The position numbers and the translations under genes were made by a program. Of a stretch of 42,715 nucleotides of DNA, positions 270 through 42,715 are shown one piece after another. The first letter of the stretch is position 1. Each line of letters begins with the position of its first letter. The notes beneath the pieces are model-generated. The model was not told the origin of the DNA. It did not search any database and saw nothing but the letters and a program-made list of their open reading frames with translations. The stretch is from positions 1-42,715 of IMG/VR virus record IMGVR_UViG_3300047440_000309. One strand, 5' to 3'. Source of the DNA: a virus.

Positions 270-278
270 GGATGCTCA
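270..278 (+). promoter_or_regulatory. GGATGCTCA leader motif before the gene at 282
   Basis: GGATGCTCA with 3 nt to the ATG at 282. The GGA may act as a weak Shine-Dalgarno sequence; the internal ATG is out of frame with the gene. Confidence 0.75.
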
Positions 279-281
279 CTC

Positions 282-557
282 ATGATCCATTACCGCACCT
301 TAAGGGAACGCGCCGAAGCCGCGCGCTGGCGCCGGTTCCACAAGGCCGAAGCGCTCATTCGCGCGGCCGGTTGCTGCGACGCGGGCCACGGCCACAATGC
401 CCAGGTTTCCCGCGATTACGGCAAAGCATGGCCTCGCGTGGACTATGCGAAGCTCGACTCGGGGATGCGCCTAATGCACGGCCAATTCCGCGCCACCGCA
501 TGGCTTTCGGCGCTCTATACGCGCCTTGGCCCGTTCGCCTTCAATTTCGAGGCCTAG
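282..557 (+). CDS. Small early protein, unknown function
   Basis: 91 aa, the first gene of the rightward early run. I do not recognise the family. It is rich in Arg and Ala, carries a Cys-Cys pair near residue 31 followed by His-rich GHGHN, and has no membrane segment or signal peptide, so it is probably cytoplasmic. The ATG at 282 is chosen because GGATGCTCA lies 3 nt upstream, as at six other early genes; the overlapping frame that starts at 272 inside the motif has poor codon use. The downstream gene begins 5 bp after the stop, so the two are probably co-transcribed from the promoter at 209-237. Confidence 0.75.
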   Translation: MIHYRTLRERAEAARWRRFHKAEALIRAAGCCDAGHGHNAQVSRDYGKAWPRVDYAKLDSGMRLMHGQFRATAWLSALYTRLGPFAFNFEA

Positions 558-561
558 GGCT

Positions 562-747
562 GTGACCGCCTATCAGCAAGGCTACGCTATCGGCCTGCGG
601 GCGCGAATTGCTCGCATCCCCAGGTTCGCCGAACCCGGTGACCGGGCGCGCTGGCAATCCGGGTTCCTTGACGCGTCGCAGGCGCGCCGCGCGGCCGAAT
701 TGACCCGCGCGAACCCTTTTCGCTTTTTCTCTCAATCCGACGCCTAA
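562..747 (+). CDS. RMF/CrpP-like small protein
   Basis: 61 aa from the GTG at 562, five bases after the previous stop. The N-terminal half reads YQQGYAIGLRARIARIPRF and then RARWQSGFLDAS. This spacing of GY-x-x-G, R, P and RW-x-x-G-F/W resembles ribosome modulation factor, the small protein that dimerises 100S ribosomes in stationary phase, and the related CrpP fold. RMF is about 55 aa, so the length fits. Function in this phage is inferred: it could alter host ribosomes early in infection. The match is by eye and has not been tested against a profile. An upstream in-frame start at 526 would lie inside the preceding gene and is less likely. Confidence 0.6.
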   Translation: MTAYQQGYAIGLRARIARIPRFAEPGDRARWQSGFLDASQARRAAELTRANPFRFFSQSDA

Positions 748-763
748 CCGCGTTCACCGAACA

Positions 764-772
764 GGATGCTCA
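764..772 (+). promoter_or_regulatory. GGATGCTCA leader motif before the gene at 775
   Basis: GGATGCTCA with 2 nt to the ATG at 775. Here the ATG inside the motif (766) is in frame and could give a three-residue extension. Confidence 0.75.
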
Positions 773-774
773 AA

Positions 775-1164
775 ATGAACCATGCTCAATTGATCGCCCA
801 TATGGGCGAAGTCGCTAAACCCGTAATCGAAGCCTATTGGACCGATTTCACCCATGATGCGCGCCTGATCGCAGACGCGCCGCGCGGGTCAACCTTCCTT
901 TGGGCGCCCTACAAACACGGAACGCGGGTTATCGTCCTAGGGCGCGGCGAGCGGCCGAACATTCGCGCCGCGTCGATTTTCAGCGCTATGCAGGACAACG
1001 CCAAAACGGCTAGCGATACCCCGCTCGCGTGGCATTGCCTGCGGGTGGAAGGCGACGACTCCGCGATGGCGCTATGCACGGCGGATGAAGCCTGCGCCGA
1101 AGCATGGAACGCGACCCGCAAAGCGGAATGCGACCCGCGCCACATTTCCGAACTGAACATGTAA
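775..1164 (+). CDS. Early protein, unknown function
   Basis: 129 aa, soluble, family not recognised. It has aromatic-rich patches (YWTDF near residue 21, TFLWAPYKHGTRV around 40-52) and a Cys-containing C-terminal half. The start at 775 is chosen because it keeps the spacing of the GGATGCTCA leader seen at other genes; the in-frame ATG at 766 is part of that motif. It is followed by a hairpin and a new promoter region, so it probably ends the first early unit. Confidence 0.75.
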   Translation: MNHAQLIAHMGEVAKPVIEAYWTDFTHDARLIADAPRGSTFLWAPYKHGTRVIVLGRGERPNIRAASIFSAMQDNAKTASDTPLAWHCLRVEGDDSAMALCTADEACAEAWNATRKAECDPRHISELNM

Positions 1165-1166
1165 CC

Positions 1167-1271
1167 GCCAAAACGTCGCACCCTCACCGCGCATTTTTTT
1201 CGCGGTGAGGGTTGACGCGCCCCACATAGTCTATAAGTTACCTCTTGCGGCCTAGGTAAGCCGCTTAACCG
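1167..1271 (+). promoter_or_regulatory. Early leader region with U-loop hairpin and candidate promoters
   Basis: A perfect 11-bp stem (1181-1191 with 1201-1211) encloses a 9-nt loop of seven Ts; the T-run lies in the loop, not after the stem, so this is not a standard terminator. Downstream are TTGACG (1212) with TATAAG (1232, short 14-bp spacing), and TTGCGG (1245) followed by CCTAGG, as in the cassettes at 2779 and 4096. The 13-mer GCCAAAACGTCGC (1167-1179) recurs at 41463-41475. Which -35 is used is unclear. Confidence 0.5.
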
Positions 1272-1293
1272 GGCCTCGCGCCCACCCTCTCTA

Positions 1294-1302
1294 GGATGCT
1301 CA
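1294..1302 (+). promoter_or_regulatory. GGATGCTCA leader motif before the DUF932 gene
   Basis: GGATGCTCA with 3 nt to the ATG at 1306. The motif's own ATG is out of frame and would give a competing overlapping reading frame. Confidence 0.75.
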
Positions 1303-1305
1303 AAA

Positions 1306-2220
1306 ATGACCTACGGTTTTCAACAACAGTTCAAGCAAGTCCGCTTCGGTTCTGGTGCTACGATCCTGAACGCCCGCGACAGCGAAGGCCTTTCCCTCGA
1401 CCTGATCGCAGCCCGCGCCCCTTCGGTGTTCGCCACCGAAGCGCACGAATCCCGCTCCGCTCGTTACGAATTCCTCGACACGCGGGCTGTCATGGAAGGC
1501 CTGATTTCCAACGGCTTCCGGGTGTTCGAAGTCCGCCAAGGCGGTTCGCGCATCGAAGGAAAGCGCGAATTTACGAAGCATATGCTTCGCCTTCGCTACA
1601 TGGGCGAGAGCGGCGCGGGCGCATTGGTGCGGGGTAACGACCGAATCTTGCCTGAAGTCGTCATTACGAACGCCCATGACGGGACCGCATCATGGCAAAT
1701 GGGCGCGGGCGTGTTCCGCATCGTCTGCGCTAACGGCCTGATCGCTGGGGATATGTTCGATTATACCCGCATCCGCCATAATCAGGCGGGACCGCAGCAA
1801 GTTATCGAGGGCGCCTATCGCGTTATCGAGCAATTCCCCCGCATGATCGACGGCGCCCACAACATGGGCGAAATCGAGCTTAAGCCGGAAGAGTCGGCCG
1901 TGTTCGCCCGCGCCGCGCTTCAACTCCGGTGGGATAACCCGGAAGCCGCTCCGGTGGCGGCCGAAGCCATCCTGCGCCCGAAGCGCCGCGATGATATGCG
2001 GTCTGACCTGTGGACAACCTTCAACGTCGCTCAAGAGCACATTTTGCGCGGTGGTGACCAGTACCGCCACAGGTCGGAAAACACCGGCCGCGTGTCCTAT
2101 CGTCAGACCGGAGAAATCCGCTCGATTGACGATACGTCGAAACTGAACCGCGCCTTGTGGACCCTGGCCCAAGGCATGGCGGACATTAAGAGCGGCCAAG
2201 GCCTTTCGCTCGCCGCCTAG
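1306..2220 (+). CDS. DUF932 domain protein
   Basis: 304 aa. The body matches the DUF932 family found on phages, plasmids and integrative elements (YfjQ/YafZ-like): an N-terminal region around residues 1-100 with RYEFLDTR, then a central block near 130-165 with the typical FRIVCANGLIAGD signature, where family members have a conserved C-x-NG. The biochemical role of DUF932 is not established; links to plasmid maintenance and anti-defence have been suggested for relatives. Length is usual for the family. The ATG at 1306 follows GGATGCTCA. It is the largest gene of the early region and is set apart by its own leader, so it is probably strongly expressed. Confidence 0.8.
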   Translation: MTYGFQQQFKQVRFGSGATILNARDSEGLSLDLIAARAPSVFATEAHESRSARYEFLDTRAVMEGLISNGFRVFEVRQGGSRIEGKREFTKHMLRLRYMGESGAGALVRGNDRILPEVVITNAHDGTASWQMGAGVFRIVCANGLIAGDMFDYTRIRHNQAGPQQVIEGAYRVIEQFPRMIDGAHNMGEIELKPEESAVFARAALQLRWDNPEAAPVAAEAILRPKRRDDMRSDLWTTFNVAQEHILRGGDQYRHRSENTGRVSYRQTGEIRSIDDTSKLNRALWTLAQGMADIKSGQGLSLAA

Positions 2221-2288
2221 CCCTTCACACGCGGGGGCGGCGCTTCGGCCGTCCCTGCCCTTCCCTGGCCGCGTGTCGGCCCTTCTAT

Positions 2289-2297
2289 GGATGCTCA
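2289..2297 (+). promoter_or_regulatory. GGATGCTCA leader motif before the gene at 2304
   Basis: GGATGCTCA with 6 nt to the ATG at 2304, the longest spacing among the copies. Confidence 0.7.
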
Positions 2298-2303
2298 AAC
2301 CCT

Positions 2304-2777
2304 ATGACCCAATATCCCGACCTGACTCCCGAACAATCGGCCGCGCTTGAGGCCTTCGCAGAGGCGAACACGCGACCCGGTAAAAACTGGCGCGATACCC
2401 TTTGCGAAGGGTGGATGCGCGCGGCCTATCCTGGCCCGCTTCAACAGGTCCGAAACCGCTATGGCGGACTCTGGCTTACGACCGTTTACGCCTATGGCTG
2501 GCGCGCCAGCCTGCCCGAGTGGGCGCGCCCCACATTCGACGCGAGCGGCGCTGTCACGTCGCACCCTCTGCCCGGCAATGTCCGATGGTCGGCCCTCGCA
2601 TTCGACCCGCCCGCGATAGGCGCTCGCGTGGACTGCGGCGCGCGTCTGAAGTGTGGCGCGGTCACCGGCTACTTTGTGCAGGATGGCTGGCTAGGCCTGA
2701 TTGTTCGCCTTGATACGGCGCTCGAAAGCGGCTCGATTTTGGTTCACGTCTTCGGCGCGGAATGCCGCCCGGTCTGA
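2304..2777 (+). CDS. Early protein with LQQVRNRYGGLWL motif, unknown function
   Basis: 157 aa, soluble. Residues 8-60 (TPEQSAALEAFAEANTRPGK, then WRDTLCEGWMRAAYPGPLQQ and a VRN-x-x-G-x-x-WL block) resemble a small protein family common on alphaproteobacterial plasmids and prophages, of unknown function. The C-terminal half (about 105-157) alternates hydrophobic and polar residues like a small beta-barrel. The ATG at 2304 follows the GGATGCTCA leader. Frames on either strand through the same DNA lack this leader and coding character. Confidence 0.7.
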   Translation: MTQYPDLTPEQSAALEAFAEANTRPGKNWRDTLCEGWMRAAYPGPLQQVRNRYGGLWLTTVYAYGWRASLPEWARPTFDASGAVTSHPLPGNVRWSALAFDPPAIGARVDCGARLKCGAVTGYFVQDGWLGLIVRLDTALESGSILVHVFGAECRPV

Positions 2778-2778
2778 C

Positions 2779-2843
2779 CTGACAGAATGTCGCACCTAGA
2801 TCGTAAGTTAACTCTTGCGGTCTAGGTGGTGACCTGCCATAAA
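2779..2843 (+). promoter_or_regulatory. Early promoter cassette B with CCTAGA/TCTAGG hairpin
   Basis: Bases 2779-2796 (CTGACAGAATGTCGCACC) are identical to 4096-4113 and contain the small inverted repeat GACA-gaa-TGTC. A 9-bp hairpin with one G-T pair (2795-2803 with 2818-2826) overlaps the -35 TTGCGG (2815-2820); CATAAA follows after 17 bp (2838-2843). The layout equals that at 4096-4159, suggesting a shared operator-promoter cassette. Confidence 0.55.
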
Positions 2844-3059
2844 GGGGTCAGACCAGACGCGGCTAGAGGGCAAACACCCACCGCGAAAAGCTTTCTAGGG
2901 GCGAGCGGCCTAGGTCGAGCCGGGGCGACTTCCCCGGCGCTCTAACCGGGTAGCGACCTACCCCGCGCGCTCGGGATAGGTCGCCGGGGGGGTATTCGCC
3001 AGTGGCAGAGACCCGGCCCCTAGGACGCGAAGCCGGACTCACCCGGCCAGCGTAACGCA
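2844..3059. other. Non-coding leader region with strong hairpin
   Basis: About 215 bp without a convincing gene. It holds a 13-bp near-perfect stem (2953-2965 with 2972-2984, one mismatch, 6-nt loop), a smaller GCCGGGG/CCCCGGC hairpin just upstream, and several CTAG tetramers including CCTAGG at about 2907. CTAGGACGCG at 3020-3029 recurs at 42161 and 42450. It is probably the untranslated leader of the transcript that starts near 2850. No tRNA features (T-loop, CCA end) were found. Confidence 0.5.
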
Positions 3060-3066
3060 AATTGAA

Positions 3067-3075
3067 GGATGCTCA
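3067..3075 (+). promoter_or_regulatory. GGATGCTCA leader motif before the gene at 3077
   Basis: GGATGCTCA with 1 nt to the ATG at 3077. It decides the start: a TTG at 3062 in the same frame reads through the motif and is rejected. Confidence 0.75.
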
Positions 3076-3076
3076 A

Positions 3077-3598
3077 ATGTCCGCTTGGATTGTTTCAGAT
3101 ACCCACGTTCGCTTGATGGTGACCGGCGCGATTGCGCTCGATATCCACAACCGAATCCCGCTTCCGCCGCGCGCCATGCTAGAGCGCCACCCGCGCGCCT
3201 TCGCCGACCTGCTAAACAGCAACATCGCCAATATGACGGGCGTGCAATGGGCGAAGGCCTTTCCAACCGAATTCGGCCGCGCCTTGATCCTGGCGAATTA
3301 TGACAGCGTGGACGCGCTGCGCCCCCGCGACGCAGGGACAGAGGCCGAAACGCTGGCGACCCTCCTCGACTATCGCCACGCCGAAACGAAGGCCCCCGCG
3401 CCCACCGTAATCGCCGCGTGCGACTGCTACAGCTATCAAGCGTGCGAAGTTTCCGATTGGGATTCGGCGTGGGCGAATAAGGCCTGCGACATGCTCCGCG
3501 AGGCCGCAATTCACGAAGTCACGAAGGGTCAGCCGTGGGGAATTCCTGACGGTTACCGCGCCCCCGGCGCGCCTGCCCTCGCCCTTGTGAAAGGCTAG
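3077..3598 (+). CDS. Early protein, unknown function
   Basis: 173 aa, soluble, family not recognised. Residues 1-30 contain VSDTHVRLMVTGAIALDIHN; a later part has CDCYSY near residue 116 and a C-terminal PWGIPDGYRAPGAP. The DTH triplet recalls metallophosphoesterases, but no further motif of that fold is present, so no function is given. The ATG at 3077 follows the GGATGCTCA leader. It is the first gene of a run with those at 3603 and 3866, which follow with a 4-bp gap and an ATGA overlap. Confidence 0.75.
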   Translation: MSAWIVSDTHVRLMVTGAIALDIHNRIPLPPRAMLERHPRAFADLLNSNIANMTGVQWAKAFPTEFGRALILANYDSVDALRPRDAGTEAETLATLLDYRHAETKAPAPTVIAACDCYSYQACEVSDWDSAWANKACDMLREAAIHEVTKGQPWGIPDGYRAPGAPALALVKG

Positions 3599-3602
3599 GA
3601 CT

Positions 3603-3869
3603 ATGAACAATCAACGCCGCAAGGTGCTGGCGAAAATCAGCATCCGCTTGCAAGAGCTTCAAGGGGTTATCGACTCCCTGGCTGAAGACCTCGAATATGA
3701 GCGGGACGCCGAACAGGAAGCGTTCGATAACCTGCCCGAGTCCCTGCAAAACGGGGACAGGGGTATGGCGATGCAGTCCGCAATCGAGGCCTTGGACAAC
3801 GCCTGTAGCGCCCTATCCGAATTCGACCCCAGCGCCCTAAGCGGCGAAATCGACGGGGCGTGCGAATGA
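3603..3869 (+). CDS. Small conserved phage protein with coiled coil and FDNLPESLQ motif
   Basis: 88 aa. The first 45 residues form a predicted amphipathic or coiled-coil helix (RRKVLAKISIRLQELQ onward), followed by QEAFDNLPESLQNGDRG and a second helix with AIEALDNACSAL. This arrangement (EEQEA-[FY]-NLPES-x-Q, then a helix) is widespread in small phage and prophage proteins of Gram-negative and Gram-positive hosts, whose role is not known. It starts 4 bp after the preceding stop and overlaps the next gene by ATGA. Confidence 0.8.
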   Translation: MNNQRRKVLAKISIRLQELQGVIDSLAEDLEYERDAEQEAFDNLPESLQNGDRGMAMQSAIEALDNACSALSEFDPSALSGEIDGACE

Positions 3870-4099
3870 AAATCGAATGCACCCCCGCCGAAGCCGGGAG
3901 CCTCCGCGCGGCCTGCCGCTCATTCGAAGAAAAGCTAATCGAGGCGATAGCGAGCCGTCAGGCGCAGCTAGACCCCGAATGGAAGGCGGCGCTTAAGGCC
4001 GATCAAGCGAACCTGCAAAAGGCGATTCGGCTGCTGTCCTGTATCGCCGCGTGCATGGGCGAGGCGAAGCCGGGCGATAAGGTGACCGCCGAAAACTGA
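3866..4099 (+). CDS. Small helical protein, unknown function
   Basis: 77 aa from the ATG at 3866, which overlaps the preceding stop as ATGA, implying translational coupling. It is almost wholly helical and charged, with Cys at about positions 5, 17, 59 and 63. A GTG two codons upstream is possible but loses the overlap pattern. No family is recognised. Its stop codon lies inside the 18-bp repeat that begins the next promoter cassette. Confidence 0.75.
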   Translation: MKIECTPAEAGSLRAACRSFEEKLIEAIASRQAQLDPEWKAALKADQANLQKAIRLLSCIAACMGEAKPGDKVTAEN

Positions 4100-4159
4100 C
4101 AGAATGTCGCACCCTAGGCCAAAAGTAACCGTTGACCTTTTGGCCTAGGTCTTTATAAC
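4096..4159 (+). promoter_or_regulatory. Early promoter cassette C with 13-bp CCTAGG hairpin
   Basis: The 18-mer shared with 2779-2796 is followed by a perfect 13-bp stem (4113-4125 with 4137-4149, 11-nt loop), each arm containing CCTAGG or its complement. TTGACC (4132-4137) and TATAAC (4154-4159) with 16-bp spacing form the best sigma70-like promoter of the early region. The hairpin covers the -35 and the spacer, so as duplex DNA it reads as a palindromic operator across the promoter. Confidence 0.7.
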
Positions 4160-4190
4160 AGTCTTACGCGCTGCGGCGCACCACTTAGAC

Positions 4191-4199
4191 GGATGCTCA
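4191..4199 (+). promoter_or_regulatory. GGATGCTCA leader motif before the gene at 4202
   Basis: GGATGCTCA with 2 nt to the ATG at 4202, about 35 bp downstream of the TATAAC promoter element. Confidence 0.75.
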
Positions 4200-4201
4200 A
4201 C

Positions 4202-4366
4202 ATGACCCATTGGACCTCGGAACGCGTGTCAGCGGGAACCCCCGCTTACAACGCAGCGAAGGCGGACGCGGCGACAATCGCCCGTCAGAACCCCGGAACC
4301 CGCGCCGAATGGCGGGATGAATATAACGATTACAGCGTGCGCGGCGTGTGGGCGGTGGTGTCGTGA
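4202..4366 (+). CDS. Small protein, unknown function
   Basis: 54 aa beginning MTHWTSERVSAGTPAYNAAK and ending RGVWAVVS. Support comes from position: the ATG lies 2 nt after a GGATGCTCA leader, itself downstream of a good promoter, and the stop overlaps the GTG start of the next gene (GTGA). The protein is soluble and rich in Ala, Arg and Trp, with no recognised family. It is the first gene of a coupled run that reaches the recombinase at 5033. Confidence 0.75.
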   Translation: MTHWTSERVSAGTPAYNAAKADAATIARQNPGTRAEWRDEYNDYSVRGVWAVVS

Positions 4367-4665
4367 CTATTCAAGAGCGCATCGCCGCCTTCCCGGCCGC
4401 AATCGCGGTTGACCTTCGCCCGCTCTGTGCAGAGGCCCCTTACGGCGTCGTGAAGCCGGGCGAGCGCGGTTACACCCCGATATGGTCGCCGCTGTCGCTG
4501 GCCGAACTGAGCAAGATTACGGCCGATGTTCACCACACCCGCGAACCGACCGAACAGGAACGCGGCGCGGCTTTGTTCGGCTCGATGTTCGGATGGGAAG
4601 CGCCCGGCGCAGACCCGGCGCTGTACGACCTTGAAGGCCGCTTCAAGCGGAAGGGGGGGCGGTGA
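4363..4665 (+). CDS. Early protein, unknown function
   Basis: 100 aa from the GTG at 4363, which overlaps the previous stop as GTGA; a GTG five codons earlier keeps the frame but lacks the coupling. The protein is soluble, with GYTPIWSPLSLAELSKI in the middle and a basic tail (RFKRKGGR). No domain is recognised. It is part of the tightly packed early run transcribed from 4132-4159. Confidence 0.7.
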   Translation: MTIQERIAAFPAAIAVDLRPLCAEAPYGVVKPGERGYTPIWSPLSLAELSKITADVHHTREPTEQERGAALFGSMFGWEAPGADPALYDLEGRFKRKGGR

Positions 4666-4698
4666 CTCTGTTTAACGGCCGAACTGGTTTGGAGCGGC

Positions 4699-4818
4699 AT
4701 GGCGCGCCACGCGCCCGGCGCTATCGAGGCCGCGAAGAAGACGCTTCGCCCGAGTGACCGCCCTTACCTATTCGCCCGCGCCGACGATAACGACAACTAT
4801 AAGCAAGGCGCGGGCTAG
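4699..4818 (+). CDS. Very small protein, unknown function
   Basis: 39 aa beginning MARHAPGAIEAAKKTLRPSD and ending NYKQGAG. The ATG is preceded by GGAG with 4-nt spacing, and the stop overlaps the next start (TAGTG). The competing GTG frame at 4662 overlaps the previous gene as GTGA but gives 31 aa of Arg-rich sequence and has no ribosome site. The region is coding on balance; the exact frame is less sure. Confidence 0.5.
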   Translation: MARHAPGAIEAAKKTLRPSDRPYLFARADDNDNYKQGAG

Positions 4819-5036
4819 TGGGTCCAATCTGCCGCCAGATGCTAACCCGCCTCGCCGATGATCCTACGGGCGAAGGCGGGTTTAGGGTCGGCGAAATCAG
4901 CGGCGCGGCTGTCCGTCATGGGTGGGTCTGCGCCGTGTGGGAGACCCGAAAGATTCGCTTCTACAAGATCACCGAAACCGGCCGCGCGGCGATTGTCGCA
5001 TGGCGCGCCAAGCAACCGAAGGAACCCCGAACGTGA
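4818..5036 (+). CDS. Small winged-helix-like protein
   Basis: 72 aa starting at a GTG that shares a base with the previous stop. The N-terminal half (CRQMLTRLADDPTGEGGFRV) resembles the first helices of a winged helix and the C-terminal KIRFYKITETGRAAIVAWRA resembles the wing and last helix of small MarR/PadR-like phage proteins. DNA binding is inferred from this pattern only. Its stop overlaps the recombinase start (GTGA), so it may be co-expressed with it and regulate it. Confidence 0.65.
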   Translation: MGPICRQMLTRLADDPTGEGGFRVGEISGAAVRHGWVCAVWETRKIRFYKITETGRAAIVAWRAKQPKEPRT

Positions 5037-5686
5037 GCCGTCGAACCCCCGCACCCGCCACGCCTGCCGCGCCTATTCGCAGCGGCCCCGCGCGCTTTGC
5101 TTACTACCGTGTGTCGTCGTCCGATCAGACGATAGACGCGCAGCGGCAAGAGCTAGGCGGCGGACCCTACGACCGCGAATTCACCGATGAAGACACTAGC
5201 GGGACGATCCCGATGGCGCAGCGGCCGGGCTTCGCCGCCCTCTTGGCTGCGGCGCGCGAGGGTGACACCCTTTATGTCGCGGCGGTTGACCGGCTGGGGC
5301 GGGACGCTATCGACGTTCAATCAACCGTCCGCCGCCTGATCGATGCGGGCGTTGTGGTGGACGTGAAAGGCCTTGGACCTATCGGCCGGGGCGTGGGCGA
5401 AATTATTATTGCCGTGCTGGCGCAGGTCGCCGACCTCGAACGCCGCCGCATCCTGGCGAGAGCGAACGCAGGCCGCGACGCAGCCCGCGCGAGCCTCGCC
5501 GCGACCGGCCGCACACATCGGGGCGCGGAAAGCCTCGGGCGACCTCGCGAGGTTGACCCCGAAATGGTCGCCGCGTGGCGGCTTCAGAACAACGCCAGCA
5601 TATCGGCGACCGCGCGCCACTTCGGAACGTCTGACACTACCGTCAAGCGGTGCTGCGCCGCGTTCCGGCCGAAGGTGGCGGCTTAA
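5033..5686 (+). CDS. Serine recombinase of the resolvase/invertase family
   Basis: 217 aa from the GTG at 5033 that overlaps the previous stop; longer upstream starts run through the preceding gene. It has an unusual Pro/Ala-rich N-terminal extension of about 20 residues, then FAYYRVSSSDQTIDAQRQEL with the catalytic Ser at about residue 28 and Arg 26, followed by VDRLGRD (Arg 87, Arg 90) and a long helix. A C-terminal helix-turn-helix lies near 176-208 (VDPEMVAAWRLQNNASISAT onward). Family members form a phosphoserine link to DNA and resolve or invert sites. Here it could resolve multimers or switch DNA; no invertible segment was seen. It is distinct from the tyrosine integrase at 19897. Confidence 0.9.
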   Translation: MSRRTPAPATPAAPIRSGPARFAYYRVSSSDQTIDAQRQELGGGPYDREFTDEDTSGTIPMAQRPGFAALLAAAREGDTLYVAAVDRLGRDAIDVQSTVRRLIDAGVVVDVKGLGPIGRGVGEIIIAVLAQVADLERRRILARANAGRDAARASLAATGRTHRGAESLGRPREVDPEMVAAWRLQNNASISATARHFGTSDTTVKRCCAAFRPKVAA

Positions 5687-5707
5687 CTGTCAACTCATTT
5701 TGCGTTA

Positions 5708-5716
5708 GGATGCTCA
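5708..5716 (+). promoter_or_regulatory. GGATGCTCA leader motif before the gene at 5718
   Basis: GGATGCTCA with 1 nt to the ATG at 5718. TTAGGATGCTCA sits in the 31-bp gap after the recombinase gene; no clear promoter is visible in so short a gap. Confidence 0.75.
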
Positions 5717-5717
5717 G

Positions 5718-5918
5718 ATGACCACCATAGAAACAGCCGCGACGGAACGAGATGCGCGGGTGCGCCAACTCATCGCCGACGCCGAACGGAAGCGGCAGGA
5801 AATCGCCTTGGCGCCGCGTCAGGTGTTCGCGCAATTGCTCGCGGCCTTCGCTGCGGCAGGGGTCGCGGCTGGCGCGCTTATCAGCGCCGGAATCGCAATC
5901 GGGCGGCTGCTGCTGTGA
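5718..5918 (+). CDS. Small membrane protein with one C-terminal transmembrane helix
   Basis: 66 aa. Residues 1-36 form a charged, probably coiled helix; residues 37-64 (FAQLLAAFAAAGVAAGALIS onward) are a Gly/Ala/Leu-rich membrane segment with a single Arg near the end. This is typical of a tail-anchored inner-membrane protein with a cytoplasmic N-terminus. Function is unknown; superinfection exclusion, membrane targeting or an accessory lysis role are possible. The start follows GGATGCTCA and the stop overlaps the next gene (GTGA). Confidence 0.75.
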   Translation: MTTIETAATERDARVRQLIADAERKRQEIALAPRQVFAQLLAAFAAAGVAAGALISAGIAIGRLLL

Positions 5919-36419: not shown

Positions 36420-36540
36420 GCCGAGGCCTCCGCTTGAGCGTGCGGGGTGACCCGCCACCGCGCGACTGGCTTGAGGGCTCTGCGCGGCGACGGGTCGTGT
36501 CGGATGCTCAAATCACGACGCAATCAGCATAGATCGGCCG
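36420..36540. other. Intergenic region with orphan GGATGCTCA
   Basis: About 120 bp between the scaffold gene and the membrane-protein gene. GGATGCTCA at 36502-36510 faces right, against the surrounding genes, and no start codon with an open frame follows it within usable distance. It is the only copy not placed before a gene and may be a relic of a moved early gene or a protein site. Confidence 0.55.
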
Positions 36541-37416
36541 TCAGGCTTTTCCAAGCTCCCGCGCCCGAAGCTTTTCAAAGGCCTTGTCGCGCGCCGGTCC
36601 CTTCAGCTTCGCAACCTCGCCCCAGGTCAGGCCATTGTCGGCCCCCTTCCCACGCGGCCCCCCGGCCGTCGCGGACGCCCGCTGAAGCTTCTGAAGCTTA
36701 TCGGTCGCCGCAGCCTTGCCGCTCGCGAACCCCCGGCGCTTCGCCATATTGTAGACGGCTTCAGCCGGGTCGCGGCCCGACTTCATCACGTCATTGGTCA
36801 GGCCGAACAGTTCGGACGCCAGCTTTTGATTCAGCCGCGCGCCGACATATCCGAGGTCTTCCAATTCGGCGACCCGCTGTTGGCGGTAGAAGGTCGCGGC
36901 CTTGTAATAGTCGGGGTGTTCTTCGGCGAAGTCGGCTTCGAACGCCGACATACCTTCCGACACGGCGCGGGTCGATTTGATATAGTTCTGCCGCTCGCCT
37001 TCGGCCTTATCGTCATCAGCCTGCCGGGCGATGAAGGTCTTCAGAACCTTCTTAATCTGCGCGAGGTCGGTAATCGGTTCGTCATCGTCATCCCGCAGGG
37101 CGGCGACCAAATCGGCGATATCGTCGGACTGTTTGCCGCTGGTGCGCGCCTCGATTTGCTCGATGCGACTTAGAAGCTCCGCGTTCTGTCGTTCGGCGGC
37201 CCGTCGCCGCGACCGTTCCTTGGCGGCGAGTCCAGCCTTGTCGTGCGCCTGCTTTTCCCAATCTGTGGCTTTCGCGCGTCGTTCACCCTCGCCTTCGCCC
37301 TCTTCATCGCCTTCAGCTTCATCGCCGTCCTCGATTTCGGGCGTCTCGACTTCATGCTCCTCAACTTCCGACTCCGGGGCTTCGGTTTCAGGGGTGGCGG
37401 ATGGGGCTTCGCTCAT
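36541..37416 (-). CDS. Scaffolding protein
   Basis: 291 aa. The N-terminal 50 residues are extremely acidic (EVEEHEVETPEIEDGDEAEG), then comes a coiled coil (AAKERSRRRAAERQNAELLS, RIEQIEARTSG) and a helical body, ending with a basic, capsid-binding-like C-terminus (DKAFEKLRARELGKA). This is the classic layout of podovirus scaffold proteins, which guide capsid assembly and then leave. It lies downstream of the portal gene and upstream of the capsid gene as expected. The start overlaps the previous stop by ATGA. Confidence 0.85.
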   Translation of the reverse strand: MSEAPSATPETEAPESEVEEHEVETPEIEDGDEAEGDEEGEGEGERRAKATDWEKQAHDKAGLAAKERSRRRAAERQNAELLSRIEQIEARTSGKQSDDIADLVAALRDDDDEPITDLAQIKKVLKTFIARQADDDKAEGERQNYIKSTRAVSEGMSAFEADFAEEHPDYYKAATFYRQQRVAELEDLGYVGARLNQKLASELFGLTNDVMKSGRDPAEAVYNMAKRRGFASGKAAATDKLQKLQRASATAGGPRGKGADNGLTWGEVAKLKGPARDKAFEKLRARELGKA

Positions 37417-42474: not shown

Positions 42475-42630
42475 CTAGGCTTTCGAGCGCTCGCCGATGG
42501 CCCAAGAGTGGGAATACAGGTGGTCACCCTGCGCCCGGCCGTGCGCGACTAGCGCGACAATCTCACCCTCTGTCATGCGCTCCGTTTGCACCGTGGCATT
42601 CGGAAACCGCGCCGCCCATTGTTCCCGCAT
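42475..42630 (-). CDS. Small leftward early protein, intact copy
   Basis: 51 aa (MREQWAARFPNATVQTERMT, EGEIVALVAHGRAQGDHLYS, HSWAIGERSKA). The ATG at 42630 is preceded by GGATGCTCA and 4 nt, the only leftward use of this leader, and by the TTGACC/TAGATA promoter whose left-end copy is at 135-163. Codon use fits the phage and the frame is open throughout. No family is recognised; the length and the helical middle recall small regulators. The left end carries a broken version of the same gene. Its stop TAG is part of a CCTAGG. Confidence 0.7.
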   Translation of the reverse strand: MREQWAARFPNATVQTERMTEGEIVALVAHGRAQGDHLYSHSWAIGERSKA

Positions 42631-42715
42631 CGCTTGAGCATCCCTTATTGGCTAGTAACTAAGACCCTATCTAATGGCCCATGCTACGCGGGTCAATCGC
42701 CATCGCAAACTTTCT
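42500..42715. repeat. Right copy of terminal direct repeat
   Basis: 42500-42567 and 42627-42715 are identical to 1-68 and 94-182. The 59-bp core (42568-42626) keeps the leftward gene open, unlike the 25-bp core at the left end. Joining the ends gives a circle of 42533 bp with this core or 42499 bp with the left core. The right copy stops inside the promoter spacer, so the full divergent promoter exists only at the left end. Confidence 0.9.

Follow-up and report, generated by a model that had tools for sequence, protein, structure and literature searches.

The 42.7 kb virus record IMGVR_UViG_3300047440_000309 (the window, i.e. the whole stretch of DNA that was analyzed, here called W) contains a 9-nt leader, GGATGCTCA, just upstream of the start codons of eight genes. 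Our analysis of W and of related contigs (given G and L numbers) indicates that this leader is probably the target of a phage-encoded small antisense RNA (sRNA) that would simultaneously block the translation of many early genes. The conclusion is drawn from features that can be read in the sequences: complementarity between the leader and the putative sRNA, the fixed position of the antisense copy, a promoter-like element in front of it, a conserved hairpin behind it, and the joint change of leader and antisense sequence between lineages.

Ten exact matches to GGATGCTCA were found in W, whereas 0.35 were expected from dinucleotide shuffles and none of 100 shuffles reached ten. An earlier note on this DNA had put the expectation at about 0.3, and every copy that it listed was recovered at its coordinate. 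The matches correspond to nine distinct sites, one of which (36502) lies elsewhere while the other eight end 1–6 nt upstream of a start codon, in agreement with the spacing given in that note. All eight are oriented with their gene. Copies on the plus strand are located at 270–278 (gap of 3 nt to ATG 282; open reading frame (ORF) 282–557, 91 aa without a family match), 764–772 (2 nt to ATG 775; ORF 775–1164, phrog_18883 of unknown function), 1294–1302 (3 nt to ATG 1306; ORF 1306–2220, a DUF932 protein), 2289–2297 (6 nt to ATG 2304; ORF 2304–2777), 3067–3075 (1 nt to ATG 3077; ORF 3077–3598), 4191–4199 (2 nt to ATG 4202; ORF 4202–4366) and 5708–5716 (1 nt to ATG 5718; ORF 5718–5918). The eighth, on the minus strand at 102–110, precedes the divergent leftward gene with a gap of 4 nt. 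The repeat of this copy at 42635–42643, given in the earlier note, is not a separate site but the same copy seen through the overlap of the contig ends; bases 94–182 are identical to 42627–42715, and hence the W genome closes as a circle. GGA provides the only Shine-Dalgarno-like bases of the leader. Most of its nine bases are unable to pair with the 3′ end of 16S rRNA, yet they are invariant.

The remaining copy, which the earlier note had called an orphan, proved to be more than that: almost all close relatives whose sequence includes this region have it too, past the scaffold gene and on the opposite strand from the structural genes. Its minus-strand sequence (36502–36510), TGAGCATCC, is perfectly antisense to every leader copy and would lie around position +10 of the putative sRNA. 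The predicted promoter consists of a −35-like hexamer TTGGAA (36549–36554, minus strand), which overlaps the final codons of the scaffold-like gene (36541–37416, minus strand), a 17-nt spacer and a −10-like hexamer TATGCT (36526–36531, minus strand). A GC-rich long hairpin of 17 bp follows on the same strand at 36449–36496. The scaffold-like gene is located upstream of the major capsid protein (MCP) gene. Relatives gathered with MCP as the query, together with W, yielded ten distinct versions of the unit (W, G002, G005, G006, G009, G017, L047, L056, L060 and G010), and in all ten phages it directly follows the scaffold gene. On the structural strand the anti-leader reads TTGAGCATCC, reduced to GAGCATCC in G010, and its position is fixed although the neighboring bases diverge.

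A promoter-like element, TTGGnn followed by a spacer and TATNNT or a similar hexamer, precedes the anti-leader in all ten versions. The spacer is 17 nt in eight of them, 16 nt in G005 and 15 nt in G017, and the anti-leader lies 8–18 nt from the predicted start. The CTTGG of this element doubles as coding sequence for the scaffold C-terminus in most phages; in G009 it lies past the stop codon, so that coding does not explain its presence there. Sinorhizobium meliloti sRNAs have the upstream sigma-70 consensus CTTGAC-N17-CTATAT (PMC2873474), which the predicted promoter resembles, suggesting an alphaproteobacterial sigma-70-like element. A scan for E. coli-type promoters and terminators around 36500 gave no match. 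The host of W is itself likely to be alphaproteobacterial, judging from the isolated phages nearest by MCP, which infect Paracoccus (48%) and Rhizobium (47%). MCP matches across 398 genomes of one phylum were distant. When all viral contigs were scanned for the pattern CTTGG...GAYTTGAGCATCC, 64 stretches were returned, and the combination of promoter, hairpin and leaders was found only in the known MCP relatives; the remaining stretches look like chance matches.

A stem of 12–25 bp is present 3′ of the anti-leader in all ten phages. The 5′ arms have a mean identity of 39% and the fold is nevertheless kept, meaning that base changes on one arm are matched on the other. Shuffles that preserve dinucleotides gave z-scores of −3.1, −3.3, −2.2, −2.1, −3.2, −5.1, −1.4, −2.6, −3.1 and −3.0 for the individual phages, and shuffles that keep base composition only gave a Stouffer z of −9.1 for the hairpins combined. 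In nine of the ten phages the segment folds more stably as the anti-leader strand than as its complement, in keeping with G-U pairing in an RNA of that strand. For most phages one can also draw a smaller stem that would hold the anti-leader in its loop. Rfam covariance models gave no match at the gathering score for W and four loci.

The distribution of the leader among relatives was compared with that of the unit. Relatives with 83–93% MCP identity carry the leader motif, and those at or below 79% have zero, one or two copies. The six phages for which the early region is available (W, G002, G006, G009, G010 and G017) contain 44 distinct exact copies, 36 of them before an ATG or GTG, five corresponding to the supposed orphan and three belonging to neither group (9665 in G006, 19341 in G010 and 444 in G017). 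The earlier note had stated that equal frequency of the motif away from starts in close relatives would refute its observation; these counts show no such equality. The leader is exact while the surrounding sequence varies among phages. A few additional start-linked copies in G006, G009 and G017 have T or C in place of the final A, which defines the core as GGATGCTC. We also carried out a genome-wide test of association between 8-mers and starts, the latter assigned by simple ORF rules. Leader 8-mers ranked at the top in W, G002, G008, G009 and G017 (Bonferroni-corrected values of 0.0002 to 0.003); they were also top-ranked in G010 (0.2) and the short fragment G006 (0.36), where they were not significant after correction. 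No 8-mer outside the leader families fell below 0.05 in any relative. One Paracoccus, one Rhizobium and one Manatee Spring phage (47–49% MCP identity) had no significant leader. The closest DUF932 homologues, L009 and L010 (74% identity), are without it, indicating that the leader tracks the phage lineage rather than the gene. Phages with repeated leaders also carry the antisense unit, and no repeated leader was found in about 20 relatives without the unit. Apparent leaders in G031 were rejected as a coding repeat. Separately, contig L023, which contains a DUF932 relative, has 9-mers of the GGGTTGACA and CCCTAGGCG types, each occurring three times, a promoter or operator repeat of similar kind in another phage.

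A search of all relatives for other repeated start leaders identified one, in G025 (73% MCP identity). Its leader, AGGACAGACA, i.e. AGGACAGAC(A), precedes six genes, and the single further copy is not linked to a start. On the other strand that copy reads GTCTGTCCTGT, the antisense of the G025 leader, within an sRNA-like gene: it is positioned six nt past a TATATC box, and CAGCCCCGGCGCCGCGTGCGTCGGGGCTTTTTC downstream of it has the standard form of a rho-independent terminator, including a T run. Such a terminator was seen in G025 only, and the promoter-like element in all ten other units. The W-type and G025 leaders have AGGA alone in common, the Shine-Dalgarno-like part. As judged from these sequences, leader and antisense change together between lineages, and the leader letters beyond AGGA appear to behave like a code. 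Relatives of G025 revealed no further leader family. A small RNA was among the explanations that the earlier note had listed, and this option is strongly supported by the conserved antisense copy in a promoter/hairpin unit together with the co-change in G025.

Several observations weigh against an antisense RNA that represses the leader genes. The W hairpin lacks a T run, and the small stem presenting the anti-leader is not significant in most single sequences. Long-window duplex energies failed to separate leader starts from other starts in this GC-rich DNA. Pairing in G010 is limited to 8 nt, and three of the 44 exact leader copies are neither start-linked nor the antisense copy. Finally, G025 is a single genome that emerged from scanning some 30, and it has only a poor −35 region.

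Among the alternatives, the one that fares best keeps the same RNA pair and changes the sign or direction of its effect: the sRNA might activate or stabilize early mRNAs, or the leaders might serve as sponges for an sRNA that targets host or late genes. The sign cannot be read from sequence, and many identical sites would be available to a sponge. However, pairing over the sole Shine-Dalgarno-like bases normally blocks initiation, as reported for the c4 RNA of phage P1 (PMC12197685), and we consider this alternative unlikely. If the leader were simply a strong ribosome-binding site that recombination had spread, and the scaffold-adjacent copy a product of chance or a relic, this would fit GGA at the usual Shine-Dalgarno distance and the mosaic early genes of these phages. 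Such a reading does not account for the invariance of bases that cannot pair with 16S rRNA, nor for an antisense copy that is kept in ten phages with a promoter and hairpin and that co-changes in G025, and is thus improbable. Slightly less probable still is that an RNA-binding protein of the phage or host controls translation from the leader, with a separate RNA encoded by the minus-strand unit. The position and orientation of the copies suit an mRNA site, and for the start-associated sequences (SAS) of cluster K mycobacteriophages an RNA or a protein, of either host or phage origin, was considered possible (PMC3203893). Yet a protein binding GGAUGCUCA would explain neither the presence of an antisense copy on the strand that a promoter/hairpin unit would transcribe nor the co-change in G025. 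A DNA operator for a repressor would be in line with the operator-like CTAG-rich inverted repeats of the early promoters, but is very improbable: the leader copies are placed by the start codon and not by the promoter, always in the orientation of the gene, and many leader genes have no promoter-like site nearby. Two other suggestions of the earlier note were not borne out. A decoy AUG or upstream ORF is rejected because the G025 leader has no AUG and the AUG frames differ in W, and a pure translation enhancer leaves the co-changing antisense copy unexplained.

We therefore favor translational repression by an antisense RNA. Transcription of the sRNA, driven by a host-type sigma-70 promoter where the scaffold gene ends, would start near 36519 and proceed leftward; the RNA would bear UGAGCAUCC near its 5′ end followed by the strong hairpin. 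Its pairing partner in trans would be GGAUGCUCA, as carried by the transcripts of eight or more genes that flank the divergent early promoters on either side. Such pairing would span 8–11 nt and cover the sole Shine-Dalgarno-like bases; since these bases (GGA) belong to the leader, which ends 1–6 nt before the start, ribosome binding should be blocked and all tagged genes would be silenced together. The letters after GGA would constitute an exchangeable recognition code, as in G025. A host-type promoter may allow the sRNA to be made without other phage factors, e.g. in a lysogen, and the time of action could be lysogeny and superinfection, or early-gene shut-off. What we infer in this mechanism is that the sRNA is transcribed and pairs with its targets in the cell, that its effect is repressive and not activating, when it acts, and that it has a role in immunity.

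The closest parallel to the leader is provided by the cluster K SAS and their extended form (ESAS), described by Pope et al. in 2011 (PMC3203893). These are also short non-palindromic sequences, which combine a Shine-Dalgarno-like core with conserved letters for which 16S rRNA offers no pairing partner. They lie a few nt before many non-structural gene starts, mostly after gaps and oriented with the gene, and some copies have inverted-repeat promoter elements 5′ of them. Four K1 phages have one opposite-orientation SAS copy away from gene starts (PMC3203893). The SAS differ in sequence (GGGATAGGAGCCC) and hosts; their role was still termed ill-defined in papers of 2024–2025 (PMC11373665, PMC12699233). 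Neither GGATGCTCA nor AGGACAGACA matches GGGATAGGAGCCC with up to two mismatches, and we therefore regard the leader as an analogue of the SAS and not a member. In eight Anayavirus phages (L212, Anaya 59873; L214–L219; L222), the non-coding region before the last genes, which follows a late-type promoter, TTGGCG...CTTTTAGACT, contains a long hairpin whose loop, CCTCCTATCC, is antisense to the SAS core. This hairpin was not seen there in four other Anayavirus phages or in other genera (K3, K5 and K6 phages were checked), and no 8-nt antisense stretch was present in the examined genome parts of Pixie (K3) and Kratio (K5). We treat it as a lead and not as support for the proposed mechanism.

The c4 RNA of P1 covers the ribosome-binding region of ant and bears on immunity (PMC12197685). 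As proposed for the putative sRNA, c4 RNA of P1 and P7 is phage-encoded, acts in trans, is thought to have its complementary letters in loops, and targets a ribosome-binding region; the corresponding complementarity in W is a perfect 9-nt complement at eight starts. It differs in having one target mRNA, ant, whereas here one putative RNA matches 5–8 or more genes via a repeated leader. The CI RNA of P4 is a small phage immunity RNA that pairs with short sites in early transcripts and acts on termination of one early operon; it is not known to be accompanied by a repeated start leader. Bacterial trans-acting sRNAs use one seed to pair with the Shine-Dalgarno regions of many mRNAs, but their targets differ and pair imperfectly, whereas the target here is an identical 8–9 nt tag and the tag/seed pair appears to be swapped as a unit.

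Other features of W point to a second, transcriptional layer of control. Early promoter-like sites upstream of some leaders, identified as consensus matches only, have the form TTGAC-N16/17-TAGAA or TATAA with CTAG-rich inverted repeats; one site, TTGACC-N16-TATAA, lies about 32 nt 5′ of the leader at 4191. A perfect 17-bp inverted repeat of this CTAG-rich kind, CTAGTAACTAAGACCCT/AGGGTCTTAGTTACTAG, at 119–135 and 236–252 spans two divergent promoter-like sites (TTGCAT-N17-TAGAA and TTGACC-N17-TAGAT) and is probably an operator of the early promoters. A repeated intergenic block, CTGACAGAATGTCGCACC then CTTGCGGCCTAGGT, occurs 5′ of three leader genes (1165–1257, 2779–2827 and 4096–4150) in a layout that resembles ESAS elements. 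W encodes a terminase, portal, scaffold, MCP, integrase and primase/helicase-like protein, and a serine resolvase/invertase-like gene (5033–5686) lies within the leader-tagged region. When bases 1–93 are compared with the stretch preceding 42627, the leftward gene is shorter at the start and longer at the end; two strains were probably merged at the contig joint.

Phage sequences repeated at gene starts were described in 2011 and have lacked a function since. The putative antisense RNA gene that accompanies the tag in the same genomes, maintained by selection and altered whenever the tag differs, makes this old puzzle directly testable. A regulon whose members share one translation tag would be a compact way to control many genes by one RNA, and the tag/sRNA pair could serve as a part for synthetic gene circuits. 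We tentatively propose, as a possibility that we hold with less than even confidence, that the codes are exchangeable such that the sRNA of a prophage silences, at the translational level, both the early genes of that prophage and the early genes of incoming phages with the same code, the 8–9 nt code setting immunity groups. If so, immunity groups would be defined by an RNA code instead of, or in addition to, a repressor protein, and some mycobacteriophages may use their start-associated sequences in the same way.

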